A stretch of DNA of 64,000 bases from positions 124,001 through 188,000 of the forward strand of contig VGOW01000001.1 in NCBI GenBank assembly GCA_016875735.1. The letters are read 5' to 3'. Shown here one piece after another: positions 14,512 to 58,182 of the stretch (position 1 is its first letter; each line of letters begins with the position of its first letter). A program made the position numbers and the translations under genes. The stretch is from Chloroflexota bacterium (GTDB lineage Bacteria; Chloroflexota; Anaerolineae; Anaerolineales; VGOW01). The notes beneath the pieces are model-generated. The model was given only the letters and a program-made list of their open reading frames with translations, was not told where the DNA came from and made no database searches.

Positions 14512-14566
14512 TAATCAGGAATTGGTAAGCGGTAATTACCAATTCCTGATTACCAATCACCAATCA
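14512..14566. repeat. Perfect 17-bp inverted repeat made of STRR units, in divergent folC/GT-C intergenic region
   Basis: taatcaggaattggtaa (14512-14528) / ttaccaattcctgatta (14536-14552), then ccaatca ccaatca cc. Confidence 0.75.
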
Positions 14567-14570
14567 CCGA

Positions 14571-16517
14571 ATGATCCGCCGCCTCTCCCTCCCCTCCCTC
14601 ATCCTCTTGCTGGCCACGGCACTGCGCCTCTATCATCTCGACTTTCGCGCGCTGTGGTGGGATGAAGGGTTGAGTCTTTTCTTCGCCCGACTCAATTACA
14701 TTGAGAATGCGCGCATGGCTGTGATTCTGGCCGACACGAACCCGCCAGTGTATCGGCTGTTGCTCGGCGCGTGGGTTGGGATGGTGGGCAGTTCGGCGTT
14801 CACGACTCGGCTGTTCTCGGTTTTGCCCGGCGTGATACTCGTCGCCATCGTTCATCGGTTGGGGCGAGCGCTGAGGCTCTCGCGCACAACATCGCTGATG
14901 GCAATGGTTCTGTGCGCCGCCTCGCCGATGCTGATCTATTACTCGCAAGAGGCCAAAGGCTACAGCCTCGTGGCGATGGCGGCGGCCGCGTCGGTGATGT
15001 TGTGGATTATAGTAACCCCCACCCTAACCCTCCCCCGTCGGAAAAACACCGACAGGGGAGGGGATCGACTCCCCTCTCCCGCGAAGCGGGGGAGGGGCTG
15101 GGGGTGGGGGATGGCAGGGTTATACACCCTCGCCCTCCTCCTCGCCGTCGGCTCACATTACATCGCCGCATTTCTGATCGCCGTCGAGAATCTGTGGACG
15201 ATTGCGCTCACCATTCGGCATTGGCGCGGCAACGAACGGCAATGGCTGATCCTTTGGGCGCGGATGATCGGCGCGCAAGCTATTGTTGCGCTGGCCCTGC
15301 TTCCATTCGTCGCCCTCACCTTCGGCGGCACGAGCGCGGCGGTGCGCGGCGAGACGGGCGGGTTCAGCGGGTTGAACGGCCCGGCGCAATTCTTCGGCCA
15401 GCATGCCATCGAACTCACGCAGGGGCCAACGGCGGGAGGAGTGTGGGCATGGGTGGGAGCGGGAGCAATCATCGGGTTAGTGGTAATTGGTTATTGGAGA
15501 TTGGAGATTAGAGATTGGAAGTTGCTGACTTGGATTGCCATTCCAATCCTTTGCGGCTTCGCTCTCAACACTTATCACGAATTCTTCTTTCCGCGATTCG
15601 TCCTCTACACTGTCCCGCCGATCATGCTCCTCGCAGCCAACGGCCTCCATCGCCTCGCCTCGCCATTCGCCATTCGTCATTCGTCATTCATCATTGTCTC
15701 ATTGTTCATTGTCTCATTGTGGACTCCGTCTCTTCTCGCTCATTACAACGCTCCCACCGACCCCGCCGAAGACTGGCGGCCCGTGGCCGAGGCCATGCGC
15801 CCGCTGATGCGCGAAAGGGACGCCGCCATTTACGTTTGGGGCTGGATGCCCGGCTACCTCGACTCTTATCTCCCCCCTGCCCCGCGCCCTCGTTACGCGC
15901 TCGGCTTCTTCACTCCGCAGTCGCTCGACGCTGACATGACTCGCATCACCGCCGGGCGCGATCGGGTGTGGCTGTTGGATTATCAAATCGATCAGTTCGA
16001 TGCGCGCAACATGGCCGGGCGATGGCTGGGCCAACGCGCCGCATTGGTGTTCGACGAGTGGCACGGCAACGCGCACATCGCGTTATTTGCGCTCAAACAA
16101 TCGCGCACAATTTCGCCGGGGCAGTTTGAGTTTGAGTTTGGGAATGGTTTGCGGCTGACGGTTTCAGAAATGCAAGCCGCGCTCGCGCCGGGTGACGCGC
16201 TGGCGATCTCGATGGTGTGGGAAGCGACTCGGCCGCTCGCCGAGCGCTACACCGTCTTTTTGCACCTGCAAGCCGACGATGGCACGCTCGTCGCCGGGCG
16301 CGACTCCGAGCCGAACAACGGACTCATGCCCATCGCCGAATGGGAGCCGGGCGAGCGCCACGCCGAATTGCGCGGCCTGCTCATCCCGCCCGAGACTCCG
16401 CCGGGGCGCTATTGGATCACGGTGGGGATGTACAACACGCTGACGGGCGCGGTGGATGAAGCGGGGCCAATGGTGGTGGGGGCGGTGGAGGTCAATTCGG
16501 GTCATTCCACGCCCTGA
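14571..16517 (+). CDS. GT39-like GT-C membrane glycosyltransferase
   Basis: FRALWWDEGLSLFFARLNYIENARMAVILADTNPPVYRLLLGAWVGMVGSSAFTTRLFSVL, multi-TM. Confidence 0.82.
   Translation: MIRRLSLPSLILLLATALRLYHLDFRALWWDEGLSLFFARLNYIENARMAVILADTNPPVYRLLLGAWVGMVGSSAFTTRLFSVLPGVILVAIVHRLGRALRLSRTTSLMAMVLCAASPMLIYYSQEAKGYSLVAMAAAASVMLWIIVTPTLTLPRRKNTDRGGDRLPSPAKRGRGWGWGMAGLYTLALLLAVGSHYIAAFLIAVENLWTIALTIRHWRGNERQWLILWARMIGAQAIVALALLPFVALTFGGTSAAVRGETGGFSGLNGPAQFFGQHAIELTQGPTAGGVWAWVGAGAIIGLVVIGYWRLEIRDWKLLTWIAIPILCGFALNTYHEFFFPRFVLYTVPPIMLLAANGLHRLASPFAIRHSSFIIVSLFIVSLWTPSLLAHYNAPTDPAEDWRPVAEAMRPLMRERDAAIYVWGWMPGYLDSYLPPAPRPRYALGFFTPQSLDADMTRITAGRDRVWLLDYQIDQFDARNMAGRWLGQRAALVFDEWHGNAHIALFALKQSRTISPGQFEFEFGNGLRLTVSEMQAALAPGDALAISMVWEATRPLAERYTVFLHLQADDGTLVAGRDSEPNNGLMPIAEWEPGERHAELRGLLIPPETPPGRYWITVGMYNTLTGAVDEAGPMVVGAVEVNSGHSTP
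15013..15111. repeat. GC-rich nested palindromic element inside CDS
   Basis: cccccaccctaaccctcccccgtcgg...ccgac...cccctctcccgcgaagcgggggaggggctgggggtggggg; translated in frame as TPTLTLPRRKNTDRGGDRLPSPAKRGRGWGWG. Confidence 0.75.
15484..15521. repeat. In-CDS 7-bp STRR
   Basis: ttggtta ttggaga ttggaga ttagaga ttggaag; translated VIGYWRLEIRDWKL. Confidence 0.7.
15661..15720. repeat. In-CDS 7/8-bp STRR
   Basis: gccattc gccattc gtcattc gtcattc atcattg...; translated FAIRHSSFIIVSLFIVSL. Confidence 0.75.
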
Positions 16518-34635: not shown

Positions 34636-36054
34636 CTAATGCCGCTCGAGCAGATATACAGTCATATTCAAGTTTGGGTTCGCCGGATCGCACAAGGCCC
34701 CCGTTTGGAACTGCGGCTTCAAGTCGGGCTGGCGGGTGAACTCCGGACACCAGCCCGGGTACGTGATCACATACGTCGGCTTCCCTTCACGAATAAAATC
34801 CCACAGCCGTGAGTCATCGCCCATCAACGGAATCATTTCCGGCGAAACGAGTCCGGCCAAATCCATCAGCCGCACATCGGCAAAATAACCCAATGCCCCA
34901 ATGTCGTGCGCCGCCACCAATGTATCCGACCCTGCGTGTGATGCGATCCACTTCGCCACCGCCACCATTTCATTGTTGATCACGCGCACATCGGACACGA
35001 GCGCATTCGCGCCCAACCCCCAAAAGGCCGCCGCCGCCGCGCCCACACTCATCACCCACGCCCGGCTCACTACCCGCCGCCACATCACCGAGACATTCCA
35101 CCGCGCCCACTTCGCCAGCCCCGCTCCGCCGATGGCGATCAACATCGGGATGACCGGAATGAGATAACGACCGTGCTGATAGGTCACCGGCAAACGCAGT
35201 GCATACGCGGCGAGGAACGCGCCCACCCATGCCAACTGCGGCCAGCGGCCTCGCGCGCCCAACGCCACGCCCGGCGCAAGCAACGCCAGCGAGCCGATGA
35301 GCGGCGCAGAAAAAATTTGCCACACTCGTTGCCACAGCGGCAGTTCCCTCAGAATGGCATACTCGGCTTGCTTCGCAAAAAAGGTGTTCGGCCAAACTTG
35401 CCCGCTCAGCGCAACATTGAAAATGAAATACGGGATCAGAATGAATGCCGCTCCACCCGCCAACCCTCCCAACCGTTTCAACCGCAGGGTTCCGTCAGCG
35501 GCCGCAGCCCAAACCGCCCACGCGCAAAACGGCAGCAGAGTCAACCCATCGGGCCGCGCCCACACCGCGAGCCCGATCAGCACGCCGCACAAAAACTCCC
35601 CTCTCCGTTTGGGAGAGGGGCCGGGGGTGAGGGCCCACGCCCCCATCGCCAGCGCGCAAAACAGAATCGTCTCCATGCCCGATGCCGCCGCCCACACCAA
35701 ATGCCATTCCACTGCCGCCAACGCCCCCGCCCACCATTGCCCCGACACTCGATACATGAGCCACGCCGTCGCGCCGAGCAACAACGCATTCAGCGCCATC
35801 GCCCACAGCTCGTAATCGATTCTCAGCGTGTATCCGATCGCCAGCATCGCCGTCCACAACGGAGAGGTGGAGCCGGCCGAGGGCTGGCCGAGAATGAACG
35901 CCCACTGCCCGTGCCAGCCCAGATTGCGCGCGTAGGTTTGATGGATCCACGCATCGTCGAGCGGGAAGCCGGACTCGCCCGCCAACCGAAGCGCAACGGC
36001 ATACCCCGCCGCCGATAACGCGCCGAGCGCGATCGGACTCCATTCGCGTTTCAT
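34636..36054 (-). CDS. GT-C membrane glycosyltransferase
   Basis: Multi-TM; FPLDDAWIHQTYARNLGWHGQWAFILGQPSAGSTSPLWTAMLAIGY; C-terminal HDIGALGYFADVRLMDLAGLVSPE. Confidence 0.8.
   Translation of the reverse strand: MKREWSPIALGALSAAGYAVALRLAGESGFPLDDAWIHQTYARNLGWHGQWAFILGQPSAGSTSPLWTAMLAIGYTLRIDYELWAMALNALLLGATAWLMYRVSGQWWAGALAAVEWHLVWAAASGMETILFCALAMGAWALTPGPSPKRRGEFLCGVLIGLAVWARPDGLTLLPFCAWAVWAAAADGTLRLKRLGGLAGGAAFILIPYFIFNVALSGQVWPNTFFAKQAEYAILRELPLWQRVWQIFSAPLIGSLALLAPGVALGARGRWPQLAWVGAFLAAYALRLPVTYQHGRYLIPVIPMLIAIGGAGLAKWARWNVSVMWRRVVSRAWVMSVGAAAAAFWGLGANALVSDVRVINNEMVAVAKWIASHAGSDTLVAAHDIGALGYFADVRLMDLAGLVSPEMIPLMGDDSRLWDFIREGKPTYVITYPGWCPEFTRQPDLKPQFQTGALCDPANPNLNMTVYLLERH
35595..35634. 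repeat. GC-rich palindromic element inside CDS
   Basis: ctcccctctccgtttgggagaggggccgggggtgagggc; translated in frame ALTPGPSPKRRGEF. Confidence 0.8.
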
Positions 36055-37595
36055 CGCGCGACCTCGAACAACTTCCACTCGCCCCAACGATTTACCAATT
36101 GCAGTCGCTCGCCGCGCTCGCTTGCATACAATGCGCCCAGCCCGGCCGGGATATTGTGATCGAGCAAAACATAGCGCGCATTGAATCGGTCGGCGGCGAG
36201 GAGCAGAATGGATACATCGCCGTTAACGAGCGGGATGCCGGGGTGGCCGGTCGCCACCCAGAACCCGGGCGGGTTGTTGCTCATCACGACGGCGTCGCCG
36301 GGAATGGCCGCCCCGATTTCACGGAAGGATGCATCACCGCCGTTCCATTCTTTCAACCGAATCGTGATCATTGCCAGAGTCAGTATCGCCGCCATCGCAA
36401 TAGTCAGGATCGAAAAATTAAGTTTGGCCTTTTCGGGCTGCCAATGTTTGAGGCGAGCGGCGGCCCAATCAATCGCGGCGTCGAGGCCAGCAAAGCAAGC
36501 GGCGAAATAGAAGGGCATGAGGGCGGCGCTGGAATGGAACAGTCCGCCGCGCGCGCCGGGGAGACTGAAAGCGAGAGTCATGGCGATGTAAAGCATGGCC
36601 GCATACAGAAGCGCCGGGCGGAAGTATGTGTGCCGACGCAATTGCCATAGGCCGAGCGCAATGAACGGCGTGAGGAAAACAAGCCCCTGCACGCCGATGA
36701 TGGTTTGAAGGTTGATGAGCAGGGACTGCCATTTGCCATCGAGTATCGCCGCCCATCCCGCGGCGAAGTATCGTTGCGGAGTGAGATTGGGCGGATAGTT
36801 GAAGAGATCGTTGTAATCGAGGAGCCACAGCGCGCTCGCGCCGCCGCGGCCCAACGGCGAGCCGACAGCGAGCATGTTGCGGATGAGCCAAGGGAGGGTG
36901 GCGAGGAGATAGCCGACAATGAACAATGACGAATGAACAATGAACAATGAGCCAATGAACAATGAGGGTCGGCGGGCGAATGGTTGCTTACCACTCACCA
37001 CGCACGAACCGCCGACCGCCAACAGCAGAATCCCATCGGCGCGGGTGAGGTGCGCCAACCCGGCGCCCACTCCGGCGGCGAAGGCCCATCTCCAATCTCT
37101 GCTCTCTGCGGTGTGTGAAATAGCGAGGAGGGTCGCGCCGCCGATGAGTCCGTAAAGGGCAAACGAATCGGTTGTGCCCCAATAGGCTGGATAGAAGCCG
37201 CTGAAGATGGTGAGCAAGCCTGCGCCGAACGCATGGCGGTGGAGGCCGGTGGCGCGCAGTGAACAGTGATACGTGATCAGCGGGAGGAGGCTGGCGAGAA
37301 GGAGAAGGGGAAATCGCGCCGCCGCGAAGGATTGCCCAAAAGCCGCCATCGAGAGCGCGGCGACGATGGACGTGAGCGGCATCCAATAGAGGTGGCTCGG
37401 CTGTGGCAGCGATTGCGGATCGCCGAGATAATTCCACAGATACGGCTCGGTGAAGCCTTGCCCCTGCGCCAACCGCAGTGCGCCGCCGAAATAATAGGCG
37501 TCGTCCACGTATCCGGGCGCGCGGATGAACGAGGCCGCGCCGAAGTTGAACAGCAGGGCGAGGGCGAAGAGGAAGAGAAGATCGCGGCGAGGCAT
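36051..37595 (-). CDS. GT39-like GT-C membrane glycosyltransferase
   Basis: PGYVDDAYYFGGALRLAQGQGFTEPYLWNYLGDPQSLPQPSHLYWMPLTSIVAALSM, multi-TM. Confidence 0.82.
   Translation of the reverse strand: MPRRDLLFLFALALLFNFGAASFIRAPGYVDDAYYFGGALRLAQGQGFTEPYLWNYLGDPQSLPQPSHLYWMPLTSIVAALSMAAFGQSFAAARFPLLLLASLLPLITYHCSLRATGLHRHAFGAGLLTIFSGFYPAYWGTTDSFALYGLIGGATLLAISHTAESRDWRWAFAAGVGAGLAHLTRADGILLLAVGGSCVVSGKQPFARRPSLFIGSLFIVHSSLFIVGYLLATLPWLIRNMLAVGSPLGRGGASALWLLDYNDLFNYPPNLTPQRYFAAGWAAILDGKWQSLLINLQTIIGVQGLVFLTPFIALGLWQLRRHTYFRPALLYAAMLYIAMTLAFSLPGARGGLFHSSAALMPFYFAACFAGLDAAIDWAAARLKHWQPEKAKLNFSILTIAMAAILTLAMITIRLKEWNGGDASFREIGAAIPGDAVVMSNNPPGFWVATGHPGIPLVNGDVSILLLAADRFNARYVLLDHNIPAGLGALYASERGERLQLVNRWGEWKLFEVAR
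36917..36967. repeat. In-CDS 7-bp STRR
   Basis: aatgaac aatgacg aatgaac aatgaac aatgagcc aatgaac aatgagg; encodes SLFIGSLFIVHSSLFIV on the minus strand. Confidence 0.78.
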
Positions 37596-54084: not shown

Positions 54085-56390
54085 AGGCAGATTAGAGACA
54101 AAGCCAAGGCATTCTGTGGATCGAGTTCCAGCACAGCGTGTTTGACTTGTTGAGATGCAACGCAGGAGTCGTAAGTATTCGACCAGATCAGTAACCGCTC
54201 GAAACGAGGCGGATCGGTTCTAGGATCGAAGTCCAATACTACCAGGCCATCTGTTACATCCATTGGCAATGGCTGGCGTTCATATAACCCCAAACTATAT
54301 GTGCGCCCGAAAGTGCTCCCGGCGCCTTCCAGCCCAGAGTCAGCGAGGGCAAACAACGCACGACGATAATCGTTCATTGCCGCTTCGATTTCGCCAGCTT
54401 CGATTTCCACGTCGCCGGATAAGAGGGTCACGCGAGCGATGATAGGCGCGGGCAAAGAAGCAGAAGACAGAGCGGCCCTGATCAGATCGCGCGCCTGCTC
54501 TACATCGCCGCGGGCAATAGCTTGAGTGATTTCATCGATTGTCTCAGTCGTCGTGGCAGCGACAACAGGCACATCTTTCAAAGCTCGACGTCGAAGTTCG
54601 GTTTGTAGCCAATAATCGCGGTCACGCCAATCAGGGCGTTGCGCTAACACAGCCAAATATTCGCGATGCGCGCCATCTTCATCGCCCAACACTTCAGCCA
54701 TCTGTCCGGCGGTCAAGCGAATTGTTGGCGCAAGAGGCGCCAGTTCAACCGCCCTCTGCAATGCTTCGTAGGCCGCCTGCCTATCTCCATTATGCCAGCG
54801 CGAGAGTCCCAAACTTGTATATGAAATCGCCAAATTGCCTTCCGTCGCAACTGCCGATTCGAAATGCCTTTGAGCCGCTTGCCAATCATCCAGTTCGGCG
54901 GATAACCATCCGGCATTCATTTGATAAAAAGCCAAAGTAGGATCACGGCGAATCGCCTCCTGCGCTTTTGCGTAAGCTTGCTCCACTTCGCCGTTGCTAT
55001 ACAGTTGCCGTGCTTCCTCAAATGAGCCATAAGCCATCAACCATTGAATCTGGAAAGCGAGGCCGACAGCAAAAGGAACGATCAGCGCAACGATTGGAAA
55101 GCGCGAACGCGGCAGCGGTGCAGCCGTCATCAACAAAGCAGTCACCATCATCAAAGGCACCATCGTCGCTAAGCAGTGAGTCGGGTCATCGAGGGATGAA
55201 TGGGTGACAAACCCGGTCAAACTAAAACAACTCGCCCAAGTCTCCAGCCGTAAGTCGGATGGCGCTGCTTTCACTCGTTGCCATCCTACGTGCGCCAAGA
55301 AAACCAATAGCATCGCCAAAGCGCCAACGCCTACCAATCCGAACTCAGCCAAAGTTTGTGCCACAATGCCGTGAGCATGAATGGGCCAAAATTCGGGTGG
55401 CAGGGAGACGAAACGCGGAACTTCAAAACCAAAGCGTCCTGGCCCCACTCCCAACCAAGGGCTTTCCCACGCAAGCTGGCCAGCAATTTTCCAGAAGACA
55501 AAGCGAGTGGCAAACAGGCCGCCGCCGTGCGTCGGGTGAGAGCTTTGATACACGAGTATCCCAATGAGTACGGCTACGGCGCACAACCCTAACCATATCC
55601 AGCGCTTCAAAAACGGTAACCAGCCCTCGCGTTTCGACGAATGGGATCGCCAAATCATTATAGCTGCCACCCCGGCCAACATCGAAAGCAATCCCGCCAG
55701 CGCTCCACGCGACGAGGCAAAAACAGTGTTGACTGTATACATGATCAACCAGATCAACAAAGAACTTCGCACCCCGTGTCGAGGGGCGCGCCGCCATACC
55801 ACTATCACATATGGCAAGGCCAAATTGGCTGAATTCATCAACAAGTTGGAATGGCCTAGTAGCGTCACTGGGCGATACAACGCCCCTAACAATAGGGTGC
55901 CCTGACCACTGGCATAGTACGCATAAATTTCCAGGAGGCCGGCGGCCATTGCCAAACCCGATACGGTTAGTAGTGCATTAATTATCGAAGCACGAGGCCA
56001 GCCTGCGGAAAGCCAATCGACTGCCATGAGGAAGATCAGCAGAAAGCCAGATAGCTTTAGCAAGCGAGCTGCGCTGACACGCCCATCGGGTGACACAGCC
56101 CAAGAGGCAAATGCCGCAAGGATAGTTGCCAACAGGCCCCATTCCAAGCCGGTGACCGACCAGGCCGCCCGTTCGGCAACACCTCGCCAAAGCAACCAAC
56201 TGATCACCAATGATGCTCCTAAAATCAGTGTCACGACCTGCCAGAGCAGATAGGTGTTTGCAAACAGCCCTCCCCCTGCCAAGACAATGTAGCATAAAGC
56301 AACCATCGCCACGATGTGCTTCAGGCCGACCTCTAAGGAAGATCGACGAGAGAGGGGCATTCTTCCAAAGGCAACGACGCGTTCAATCAT
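54081..56390 (-). CDS. O-antigen ligase-like (Wzy_C) membrane protein with C-terminal TPRs
   Basis: LLGHSNLLMNSANLALPY, ESPWLGVGPGRFGFEVPRF..PIHAHGIVAQTLAEFGLVG; TPR repeats follow. Confidence 0.85.
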   Translation of the reverse strand: MIERVVAFGRMPLSRRSSLEVGLKHIVAMVALCYIVLAGGGLFANTYLLWQVVTLILGASLVISWLLWRGVAERAAWSVTGLEWGLLATILAAFASWAVSPDGRVSAARLLKLSGFLLIFLMAVDWLSAGWPRASIINALLTVSGLAMAAGLLEIYAYYASGQGTLLLGALYRPVTLLGHSNLLMNSANLALPYVIVVWRRAPRHGVRSSLLIWLIMYTVNTVFASSRGALAGLLSMLAGVAAIMIWRSHSSKREGWLPFLKRWIWLGLCAVAVLIGILVYQSSHPTHGGGLFATRFVFWKIAGQLAWESPWLGVGPGRFGFEVPRFVSLPPEFWPIHAHGIVAQTLAEFGLVGVGALAMLLVFLAHVGWQRVKAAPSDLRLETWASCFSLTGFVTHSSLDDPTHCLATMVPLMMVTALLMTAAPLPRSRFPIVALIVPFAVGLAFQIQWLMAYGSFEEARQLYSNGEVEQAYAKAQEAIRRDPTLAFYQMNAGWLSAELDDWQAAQRHFESAVATEGNLAISYTSLGLSRWHNGDRQAAYEALQRAVELAPLAPTIRLTAGQMAEVLGDEDGAHREYLAVLAQRPDWRDRDYWLQTELRRRALKDVPVVAATTTETIDEITQAIARGDVEQARDLIRAALSSASLPAPIIARVTLLSGDVEIEAGEIEAAMNDYRRALFALADSGLEGAGSTFGRTYSLGLYERQPLPMDVTDGLVVLDFDPRTDPPRFERLLIWSNTYDSCVASQQVKHAVLELDPQNALALSLICL

Positions 56391-57207
56391 TTTTACTGTC
56401 GTATCGCCTCAAACCCGCCAACTGCATCCCCACCGCGATCACGAACTTCGGATTGTTGATCAAATACCGCCTCCACAACCGGCGCGGCTCGGTCGCCAAA
56501 CGGAACAGCCACTCGAGTCCGCTCCTCTGCATCCAGCGCGGCGCTTGCCGTTTCAGCCCGGCGTGGAAATCGAAGGCCGCGCCGACTCCGATCAGCACGG
56601 GTGCAGTCAACTGCTCACGGTGCGCGGCCATCCATCGCTCCTGTTTCGGCGTGCTCAGCCCCACCCACACAACATCGGCGGCAGAGTCGTTGATCATCTT
56701 CACGATCTGTTGATCCTCATCCTCATTCAGCGCGCGAAACGGCGGCGAGTGAGTCCCGGCAACCTGCAAGTTCGGGAATCGTTCGCGCAATCGCGCCGCC
56801 AGCAGTTCTGGCGCGCCCTCTGCGCCGCCGTAGAAAAAATGCCGCCACCCTTTTGGCGTTGAACACTCGCACACGGCTAACATTAAATCCGGCCCGTACA
56901 CACGCGATACTTGTCGGTATCCGCGCAAACGGCTCACCCACACCAGCGGCATCCCATCGGGCGTTACCATTCCGGCGGTGTTGTGGATTTGGCGCAGTTC
57001 ATCGTCGTCTTGGCTTTCCATCACGCCGTGCACGCCGCTCACGCACACGTAACGCCGCTCGCGCCGAGCGATCCACCCTTCGATAATTTCCAACACCAGC
57101 GGCATATTGACCGCGCTGACATGCACGCCGAGCACATTGGCCCGCTCGACATCCCCCTCTCCCGTCACGCGGGGGAGGGGTAAGGGGTGGGGGCCGAAAG
57201 CCGTCAC
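56383..57207 (-). CDS. WecG/TagA/CpsF family glycosyltransferase (GT26); GTG start proposed
   Basis: VLGVHVSAVNMPLVLEIIEGWIARRERRYVCVSGVHGVMESQDD..NTAGMVTPDGMPLVW..VWVGLSTPKQERWMAAHRE..GVGAAFDFHAG. Confidence 0.92.
   Translation of the reverse strand: MTAFGPHPLPLPRVTGEGDVERANVLGVHVSAVNMPLVLEIIEGWIARRERRYVCVSGVHGVMESQDDDELRQIHNTAGMVTPDGMPLVWVSRLRGYRQVSRVYGPDLMLAVCECSTPKGWRHFFYGGAEGAPELLAARLRERFPNLQVAGTHSPPFRALNEDEDQQIVKMINDSAADVVWVGLSTPKQERWMAAHREQLTAPVLIGVGAAFDFHAGLKRQAPRWMQRSGLEWLFRLATEPRRLWRRYLINNPKFVIAVGMQLAGLRRYDSKND
57153..57193. repeat. GC-rich palindromic element at N-terminus of the wecG-like CDS
   Basis: ccccctctcccgtcacgcgggggaggggtaaggggtggggg; encodes PHPLPLPRVTGEGD. Confidence 0.8.
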
Positions 57208-58182
57208 TTTCCCATTCTCTCCCGCACCTGCGACTCGATCCACGCGTACGTGCGTGCCATCCCCTCCTCGAGTGGAATCTCCGGCTCCCACTTCAACACT
57301 TGCCGCAAACGGGTGTTATCCGAATTGCGCCCGCGCACTCCCTGCGGGCCGGGAATGTGCTTCTTAGTGATCGTGATCCCGGCGATGGCTGCCGTCATGT
57401 CCGCCAGATCATTGATCGTGATCAGTCGATCCTGCCCCACGTTGAGCGGATCACGGTAATCGGACTCCATCAACTTGCGAATGCCGGTGAGGCAATCGTC
57501 GATGTAGCAAAACGAGCGCGTCTGTTCGCCGTCGCCCCAAATTTCAATTTCGTGGTTGCCCGTCAGTTTGGCAATGGCGACTTTGCGGCACATGGCCGCC
57601 GGGGCTTTCTCGCGTCCGCCATCCCATGTGCCCAGCGGGCCAAAGATGTTGTGGAAACGGACGACGCGCGTCTCGATCCGGCCTTCCTCACGATAGTGCA
57701 TACACAACCGCTCCGTCACCAACTTTTCCCAGCCATACGCATCCTGCGGTTGCGCCGGGTAAGCATCCTCTTCTTTCAGCGGAGTCACCTCGGCCTCCAT
57801 CTGCCGATACTCCGGATAAATGCAGGCCGACGAGGTGAACAGCAATCGCTTCGCCCCATTCATCTCTGCCGCTTCGAGCGTGTGCAAATTGATGAGCAAA
57901 TTGTTGCGCAAAATCTGTGCGTGGTTGGATGAGATGAAACCCATGCCGCCCATATCCGAAGCCAGCGCATACACATCGTCCACGCCGCGAGCGGCTCGCA
58001 AACAATTATCGCGCCGCCGCAAATCGAATATCTCAAACTCGTCCGCGGCCGTCGGTTCGTATTCGGAATGCTTGATGTCCACGCCGCGCACCCAATAACC
58101 CTCGGCCTTCAGCCGCTTCACAAGATGGTGGCCGATGAACCCGCCCGCGCCCGTCACCAGCGCCCTCGGTTGACTGCTCATG
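57204..58182 (-). CDS. NAD-dependent epimerase, GDP-mannose 3,5-epimerase-like
   Basis: ALVTGAGGFIGHHLVKRLKAEGYWVRGVDIK..LFTSSACIYPEYRQ..DAYGWEKLVTERLCMHYREE..WGDGEQTRSFCYIDDC. Confidence 0.88.

Follow-up and report, generated by a model that had tools for sequence, protein, structure and literature searches.

The BoxC/PIT/TM_ECO repeats (PIT stands for potential intrastrand triplex) are known from E. coli, Synechocystis and more than 260 genomes, and the E. coli copies are stated to be always intergenic (Holder et al. 2015, PMC4666352). According to the references given in that paper, PIT elements were also treated by Hoyne et al. 2000 and by Hoyne and Maher 2002. Rickettsia palindromic elements (RPEs), as the work of Ogata et al. 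2000 is summarised in PMC10969869 and PMC2229807, are palindromes of ~100-150 bp that occupy in-frame positions in unrelated and often essential genes, with many further copies being intergenic. Intragenic copies have been reported for the GTAG/CGTC REPs (PMC3733652), and in-frame fusions for the ERIC, YPAL and Correia-type elements (PMC2229807). In Enterobacter sp. 638, 100 copies of CCCTCTCCC-N2-3-GGGAGAGGG palindromes lie at the 3' ends of genes and are presumed to have a role in transcription (PMC2869309).

The element analysed here is a palindromic insert in a gene of a Chloroflexota bacterium, found in a stretch of 64,000 nucleotides of contig VGOW01000001.1 that is referred to as the window. 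Among the named genomes compared, the closest homologs of the Lon protein of this genome come from Chloroflexi/Chloroflexota assemblies (58-61%, against 54% or less in others), which places the source in Chloroflexota. By its sequence, the element is an inverted dimer of the BoxC/PIT/TM_ECO repeat and represents a subtype of its own within this already named family. The succession of pyrimidine arm, loop, purine arm, 3-nt loop (TTA or CCG) and third strand is common to both, as are the two types of second loop, TTA (A) and CCG (B), and the occurrence as single or inverted-pair copies. Unlike the intergenic E. coli repeats, at least 20 copies lie here in frame inside genes. Many copies also belong to a subtype, GGGTGGGGG/GGGGGAGGG, whose loop 1 contains a long covarying stem, and the loops of the left units are longer than the 1-6 nt to which TM motifs are limited.

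The resemblance to the other systems is more distant. With the RPEs, compared at the level of the published descriptions cited above, the present element shares the placement of a palindrome in frame in unrelated genes; it differs from them in the host, in the use of all codon phases and in a family that extends across many phyla. The analogy with RPEs drawn in a preliminary description of this DNA stands as a concept, while by sequence the family is that of BoxC/PIT/TM_ECO (PMC4666352). The GTAG/CGTC REP, ERIC, YPAL and Correia-type elements are also short hairpin repeats that are sometimes translated, but in the present copies neither a tag tetranucleotide at the ends nor a target duplication is seen. 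The Enterobacter palindromes have the hairpin core in common with the present element, though they are not reported as in-frame inserts. No earlier report of in-frame BoxC/PIT elements was found in the open-licence literature, and the frequent in-frame residence of this repeat in conserved genes appears to be new.

The focal element and its host gene

The focal element is a nested inverted repeat of exactly 96 bp, or 32 codons, and is read in frame as residues 149-180 (peptide TPTLTLPRRKNTDRGGDRLPSPAKRGRGWGWG) of a 648-aa ORF (Table 1). The predicted peptide spanning the insert reads ...LWIIVTPTLTLPR. The preliminary description had already recognised a palindrome that is read through in frame in a coding sequence, and this is borne out. 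Its extent of 15013-15111 (~99 bp) captured the nested repeat but reached 2 bp too far to the left and 1 bp too far to the right. Three blocks, a pyrimidine arm, a complementary purine arm and a purine-rich third strand, follow one another in both focal halves, as they do in most of the 88 units of the family. Fold prediction pairs 15016-15025 with 15101-15110 as an outer stem, inside which lie the two hairpins. As RNA, the element is predicted to fold at -74.3 kcal/mol, against a mean of -48.9 kcal/mol for dinucleotide shuffles (z -6.55; equalled by none of 200 shuffles), and the DNA fold has a z-score of -6.22, likewise from dinucleotide shuffles. The terminal inverted repeat pattern gives 19 matches in the window against 1.3 expected, overlapping matches being counted.

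Table 1. The host gene, the parts of the focal element and further copies (nucleotide positions refer to the window, residues to the respective protein)
Feature	Position	Strand	Remarks
Host gene, 648-aa GT-C type membrane glycosyltransferase-like protein	14571..16517	+	Orthologs, weak TIGR03663 match, fold matches
Complete inverted-dimer BoxC/PIT/TM-like element	15015..15110	.	32 codons
Left 'third strand' CCCCCACCC	15016..15024	-	GGGTGGGGG on - strand
Second loop TAA	15025..15027	-	TTA on - strand, type A of E. coli TM_ECO
Hairpin 1, arms CCCTCCCC / GGGGAGGG	15028..15062	-	Extended stem GTCGG/CCGAC, loop AAAAACA
Linker GATCGACT	15063..15070	.	Related to AGTCGACT of other dimers
Hairpin 2, arms CCCCTCTCCC / GGGGGAGGGG	15071..15097	+	Loop GCGAAGC
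Right 'third strand' GGGGGTGGGGG	15100..15110	+	After loop CT
Second window copy, single unit, peptide LTPGPSPKRRGE	35598..35634	-	In frame in ORF 34639-36087 (-)
Third window copy	57154..57194	+	Open in N-terminal part of WecG/TagA-type glycosyltransferase ORF 56386-57291 (-)
Copy in MobA	residues 142-154		Inside Pfam match 27-183
Copy in MnmA	residues 142-158		Inside Pfam match 13-223
Copy in Eco57I methylase	residues 498-525		Inside Pfam match 407-619
Copy in Eco57I methylase	residues 517-553		Inside Pfam match 440-649
Copy in MoCoBD_2, xanthine-dehydrogenase-type	residues 494-501		Inside Pfam match 375-642
Copy in Elp3-like GNAT	residues 454-470		Inside Pfam match 433-535
Copy in PMT_2	residues 160-177		Inside Pfam match 133-298

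Other repeats were observed in and around the same gene. A 7-bp tandem repeat, AATTACC, occupies 14534-14568, immediately 5' of the start codon. Inside the ORF, an (ATTGGAG)n tract at 15475-15519 and a tract at 15660-15720, made up of the 7-bp tandem (TCGTCAT)n followed by TCATTGTC repeats, are both in frame and give the peptides GYWRLEIRDWKL and FAIRHSSFIIVSLFIVSLW, respectively. With at most one mismatch, the pattern CCATTCGCCATTCG has 46 matches in the genome, as against one for the reversed pattern.

The host protein has orthologs with 64% identity in two genomes of the same genus and matches TIGR03663 weakly. Its nearest solved structures by fold comparison are ArnT (E 1.3e-9), ALG12, Pmt and PglB, and a Pfam search of the protein returned no significant domain. 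An AlphaFold2 model, made with 18 aligned homologs, has a mean pLDDT of 85.5. In this model, the insert is a low-confidence loop (pLDDT ~50) between helices 131-148 and 175-195. The insert would lengthen the loop between two transmembrane helices. As judged from the basic charge of the insert and from the short, Arg-rich loops of the orthologs (NLHPRPPAPPPRRQ in genome G002, RMLSSRRERLG in G006), this loop is probably cytoplasmic.

A comparison of orthologs had been proposed in the preliminary description. Those of the same genus and the same order were found to be without the insert peptide and to carry unrelated loops of ~10-25 residues at the focal site, and no distant ortholog having the peptide without the palindrome was seen among those compared. 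As the ortholog loop is itself variable, the empty site cannot be delimited to the single base.

The repeat family in the genome

The copies were gathered via BLAST and pattern searches, together with the regions around the matches, from a source genome that is a fragmented assembly. It contains 55 BLAST matches to the element and 88 units in 71 clusters, ~62 with measurable ends; the dispersed copies number ~65. A search of the genome had been suggested in the preliminary description, and the palindrome was found to recur in frame in unrelated genes. Three architectures were observed: single units, one hairpin flanked on both sides by a third strand, and inverted dimers of 80-112 bp, to which the focal copy belongs. 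The core CCCTCTCCC / GGGAGAGGG / GGGTGAGGG is exact in several copies of this genome, the focal copy being its G-rich variant, and the copy at C39:34088-34120 (CCCTCTCCCTGTGGGAGAGGGCCGGGGTGAGGG) is identical to E. coli TM_ECO no. 1 over the first 33 of the 34 bases of the latter.

Two subtypes occur side by side, GGGAGAGGG...GGGTGAGGG and GGGGGAGGG...GGGTGGGGG, and loop 1 of the latter often has a longer stem. Across 27 loops of this kind, 129 of the 135 stem positions are paired despite 17 different stem sequences, which indicates that it is the base pairing that is kept and not the sequence. When the arms were exchanged among copies as a control, a mean of 71 and a maximum of 94 positions were paired. 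The stems were judged by direct comparison. The second loops of the family are CCG, CTG, TTG and TTA, with TTA in the left focal half and a CT/GCT variant in the right. Loops are short in the GGGTGAGGG subtype; in the focal element, the left unit has ~17 nt, an extra 5-bp stem being counted in, and the right one 7 nt, compared with the 1-6 nt of the ITxF rule.

Two further copies lie in the window. The hydrophobic host of the second copy has no Pfam match, and the third copy may be situated upstream of the true start of its ORF. Elsewhere in the genome, three near-identical 77-bp dimers, CCCTCACCCTAACCCTCTCCC-N3-GGGAGAGGGGACTCCCTTCCCC...GGGGATGAGGG (L114, L124 and L126), form a separate subfamily and are seemingly intergenic.

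Copies inside genes

An open frame contains 38 of the clusters. Four of these (C24, C25, C39:19195 and C67) are 5' of the likely start and were left out of the intragenic count; several others (C7, C14, C43:18595, C110 and C10:19631) are N-terminal and ambiguous; some candidate copies at or before predicted starts may be intergenic. The internal in-frame copies, at least 20 in number and situated at loops or linkers in unrelated genes, are supported by ortholog alignment or Pfam spans. Alignments with orthologs cover mnmA, elp3, murE, rpiB and mobA, along with GcvT-like, ABC-F, HNH-helicase and DNA methylase genes. Several copies fall inside a Pfam match (Table 1), and others stand between the domains of one protein, namely GCV_T/GCV_T_C, SHMT/GCV_T, Helicase_C/EcoEI_R_C and N6_N4_Mtase/Mrr_cat. 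The orthologous sites were found to be element-free for the ABC-F gene (5/5) and two Eco57I methylases (3/3), and also for MurE and the HNH-helicase. Two paralogous DNA methylase/Mrr-type genes (L152, C2:46316; L028, C39:35372) were seen to carry differing versions of the element at the identical interdomain position.

In gene orientation, the codon phases are distributed 9/8/6 for sense units and 10/6/2 for antisense units. A fixed frame or a conserved peptide is ruled out, as every codon phase is used; no single peptide is thus selected, the DNA being conserved and the peptide a by-product. A TGA would arise from GGGTGAGGG in sense phase 2, and the copies found in this phase are mostly of the TGA-free subtype, as expected if stop-bearing insertions were purged.

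The occupied loops also differ between genomes. In the mobA loop, the own genome, G003 and G006, which belongs to another family of the order, have a sense unit; G002 has an antisense unit belonging to the other subtype, and G001 and G004 are element-free. The loops of elp3, rpiB, the GcvT-like gene and the C30 methyltransferase also hold units in several genomes, and these vary in orientation, subtype or size. Such loops were either hit repeatedly, or old insertions in them were overwritten by other copies. At two overlapping contig ends, C62 (L009) and C130 (L013), identical flanks enclose a dimer in one case and a single hairpin in the other, a difference of 42 bp (14 codons). This pair represents either a population/strain polymorphism or an assembly bubble. 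Similar hairpin-sparing deletions are reported for E. coli inverted pairs (Holder et al., PMC4666352).

Distribution in other genomes

The exact three-block pattern is present in 17 of 61 relatives, and in none when it is read backwards; by BLAST, the element is found in 22 of the 61. In species-representative genomes, the exact pattern occurs in at least 118 stretches, and the matches listed include Proteobacteria, Verrucomicrobia, Planctomycetes, Cyanobacteria, Myxococcales, Nitrospiria, Omnitrophica, Armatimonadota and Chloroflexi. At these cross-phylum loci, again among the matches listed, 31 of 121 exact units lie in long ORFs accepted under a crude rule, many of which may be spurious. 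Pfam supports in-frame copies between the domains of Mfd (L208), PriA-like (L257), VgrG (L264), ABC-F (L311) and MoCoBD/cytochrome c (L233) proteins, as well as one in an FtsX protein (L295), and such cases include Proteobacteria and Cyanobacteria. Intragenic residence appears not to be limited to this lineage, and to be commoner here. In the PriA-like helicase, which is from Gastranaerophilales, a DUF559 domain adjoins the in-frame GC-rich element, and the gene is AT-rich. None of 50,697 phage records matched the E. coli-type unit, which occurs in only 23 plasmid records, all of them from Enterobacterales.

Nature of the element

We take the focal feature to be a complete inverted-dimer BoxC/PIT/TM potential intrastrand-triplex repeat, that is, a non-autonomous selfish palindromic DNA element, and put the probability of this at about 0.8. 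Other explanations have to be weighed against it. It is rather improbable that the copies are of the REP/REPIN type and owe their mobility to a Y1 (RAYT) transposase encoded in this genome. Four Y1_Tnp genes are present, and one of them (C43:16982-17350) has four element clusters around it within ~5 kb (L130, C43:13683-18643), but no element occurs within 1.5 kb of the other three, and four relatives that have elements (G026, G022, G030 and G052) show no detectable Y1_Tnp. A REP-like GTAG/CGTC tag is not conserved beside the ends either, as no such tetranucleotide emerged from the flank composition. Presence and absence across the 61 relatives do not support a requirement for RAYT. Two of the four clusters in the L130 region are in one Eco57I-type methylase gene.

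We also regard it as unlikely that the repeat is a functional DNA signal kept by selection, such as a replication pause, a site for nucleoid or repair proteins or a recombination site, with the genes as mere hosts. The extreme sequence conservation across phyla among the matches listed would agree with this, as would the polymerase stop by TM_ECO in vitro and its reported instability (PMC4666352). Nevertheless, the element is patchy in relatives (17/61 by exact pattern, 22/61 by BLAST), and as far as the account of the E. coli PIT elements in that paper goes, no promoter or terminator activity and no in vivo role was detected for them.

Still less probable is a classical MITE whose terminal inverted repeats are recognised by a DDE transposase acting in trans. 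Such repeats are present (~20 bp), and the size of 80-112 bp would suit a MITE, but direct repeats at the ends of 62 copies stay at the shuffled level, showing no target-site duplication above it. That the insert is an ordinary GC-rich low-complexity protein linker and no mobile element is very improbable, for although the orthologs likewise have variable basic or proline-rich loops at the focal site, the DNA motif recurs at ~65 sites in differing frames and orientations, and the focal element has a strong fold z-score.

Spread and significance

For the selfish BoxC/PIT-type repeat, we infer mobility from the dispersal of the copies and the empty sites. The copies would land roughly anywhere, and those that break genes would be removed by purifying selection. 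The surviving ones would then be intergenic or in frame in permissive loops, where, going by the predicted translation, they would be read as incidental Pro/Gly/Arg-rich linkers. Such copies may later shrink via hairpin-associated deletions, and they may be overwritten by other copies. As no target duplication is seen, a single-strand/hairpin route of copying would be our guess.

It is conceivable, though we lean against it, that BoxC/PIT-type elements form one cross-phylum selfish lineage, for which flexible protein loops are, besides the gaps between genes, a lasting niche across genera. An occupied loop would then stay occupied while its element undergoes overwriting, inversion or in-frame shortening. 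If this is true, a DNA parasite moulds the loops of conserved proteins.

For decades, the BoxC/PIT repeats have been on record with neither a function nor a way of spreading assigned to them. In-frame copies with empty sites in relatives make their mobility, the direction of change and the cost directly testable. Further, the recurring stretches PTLTLP..., PHPGPLP... and SPLP...GEGxGVR in predicted proteins are to be read as translated repeat DNA, and not as protein domains.
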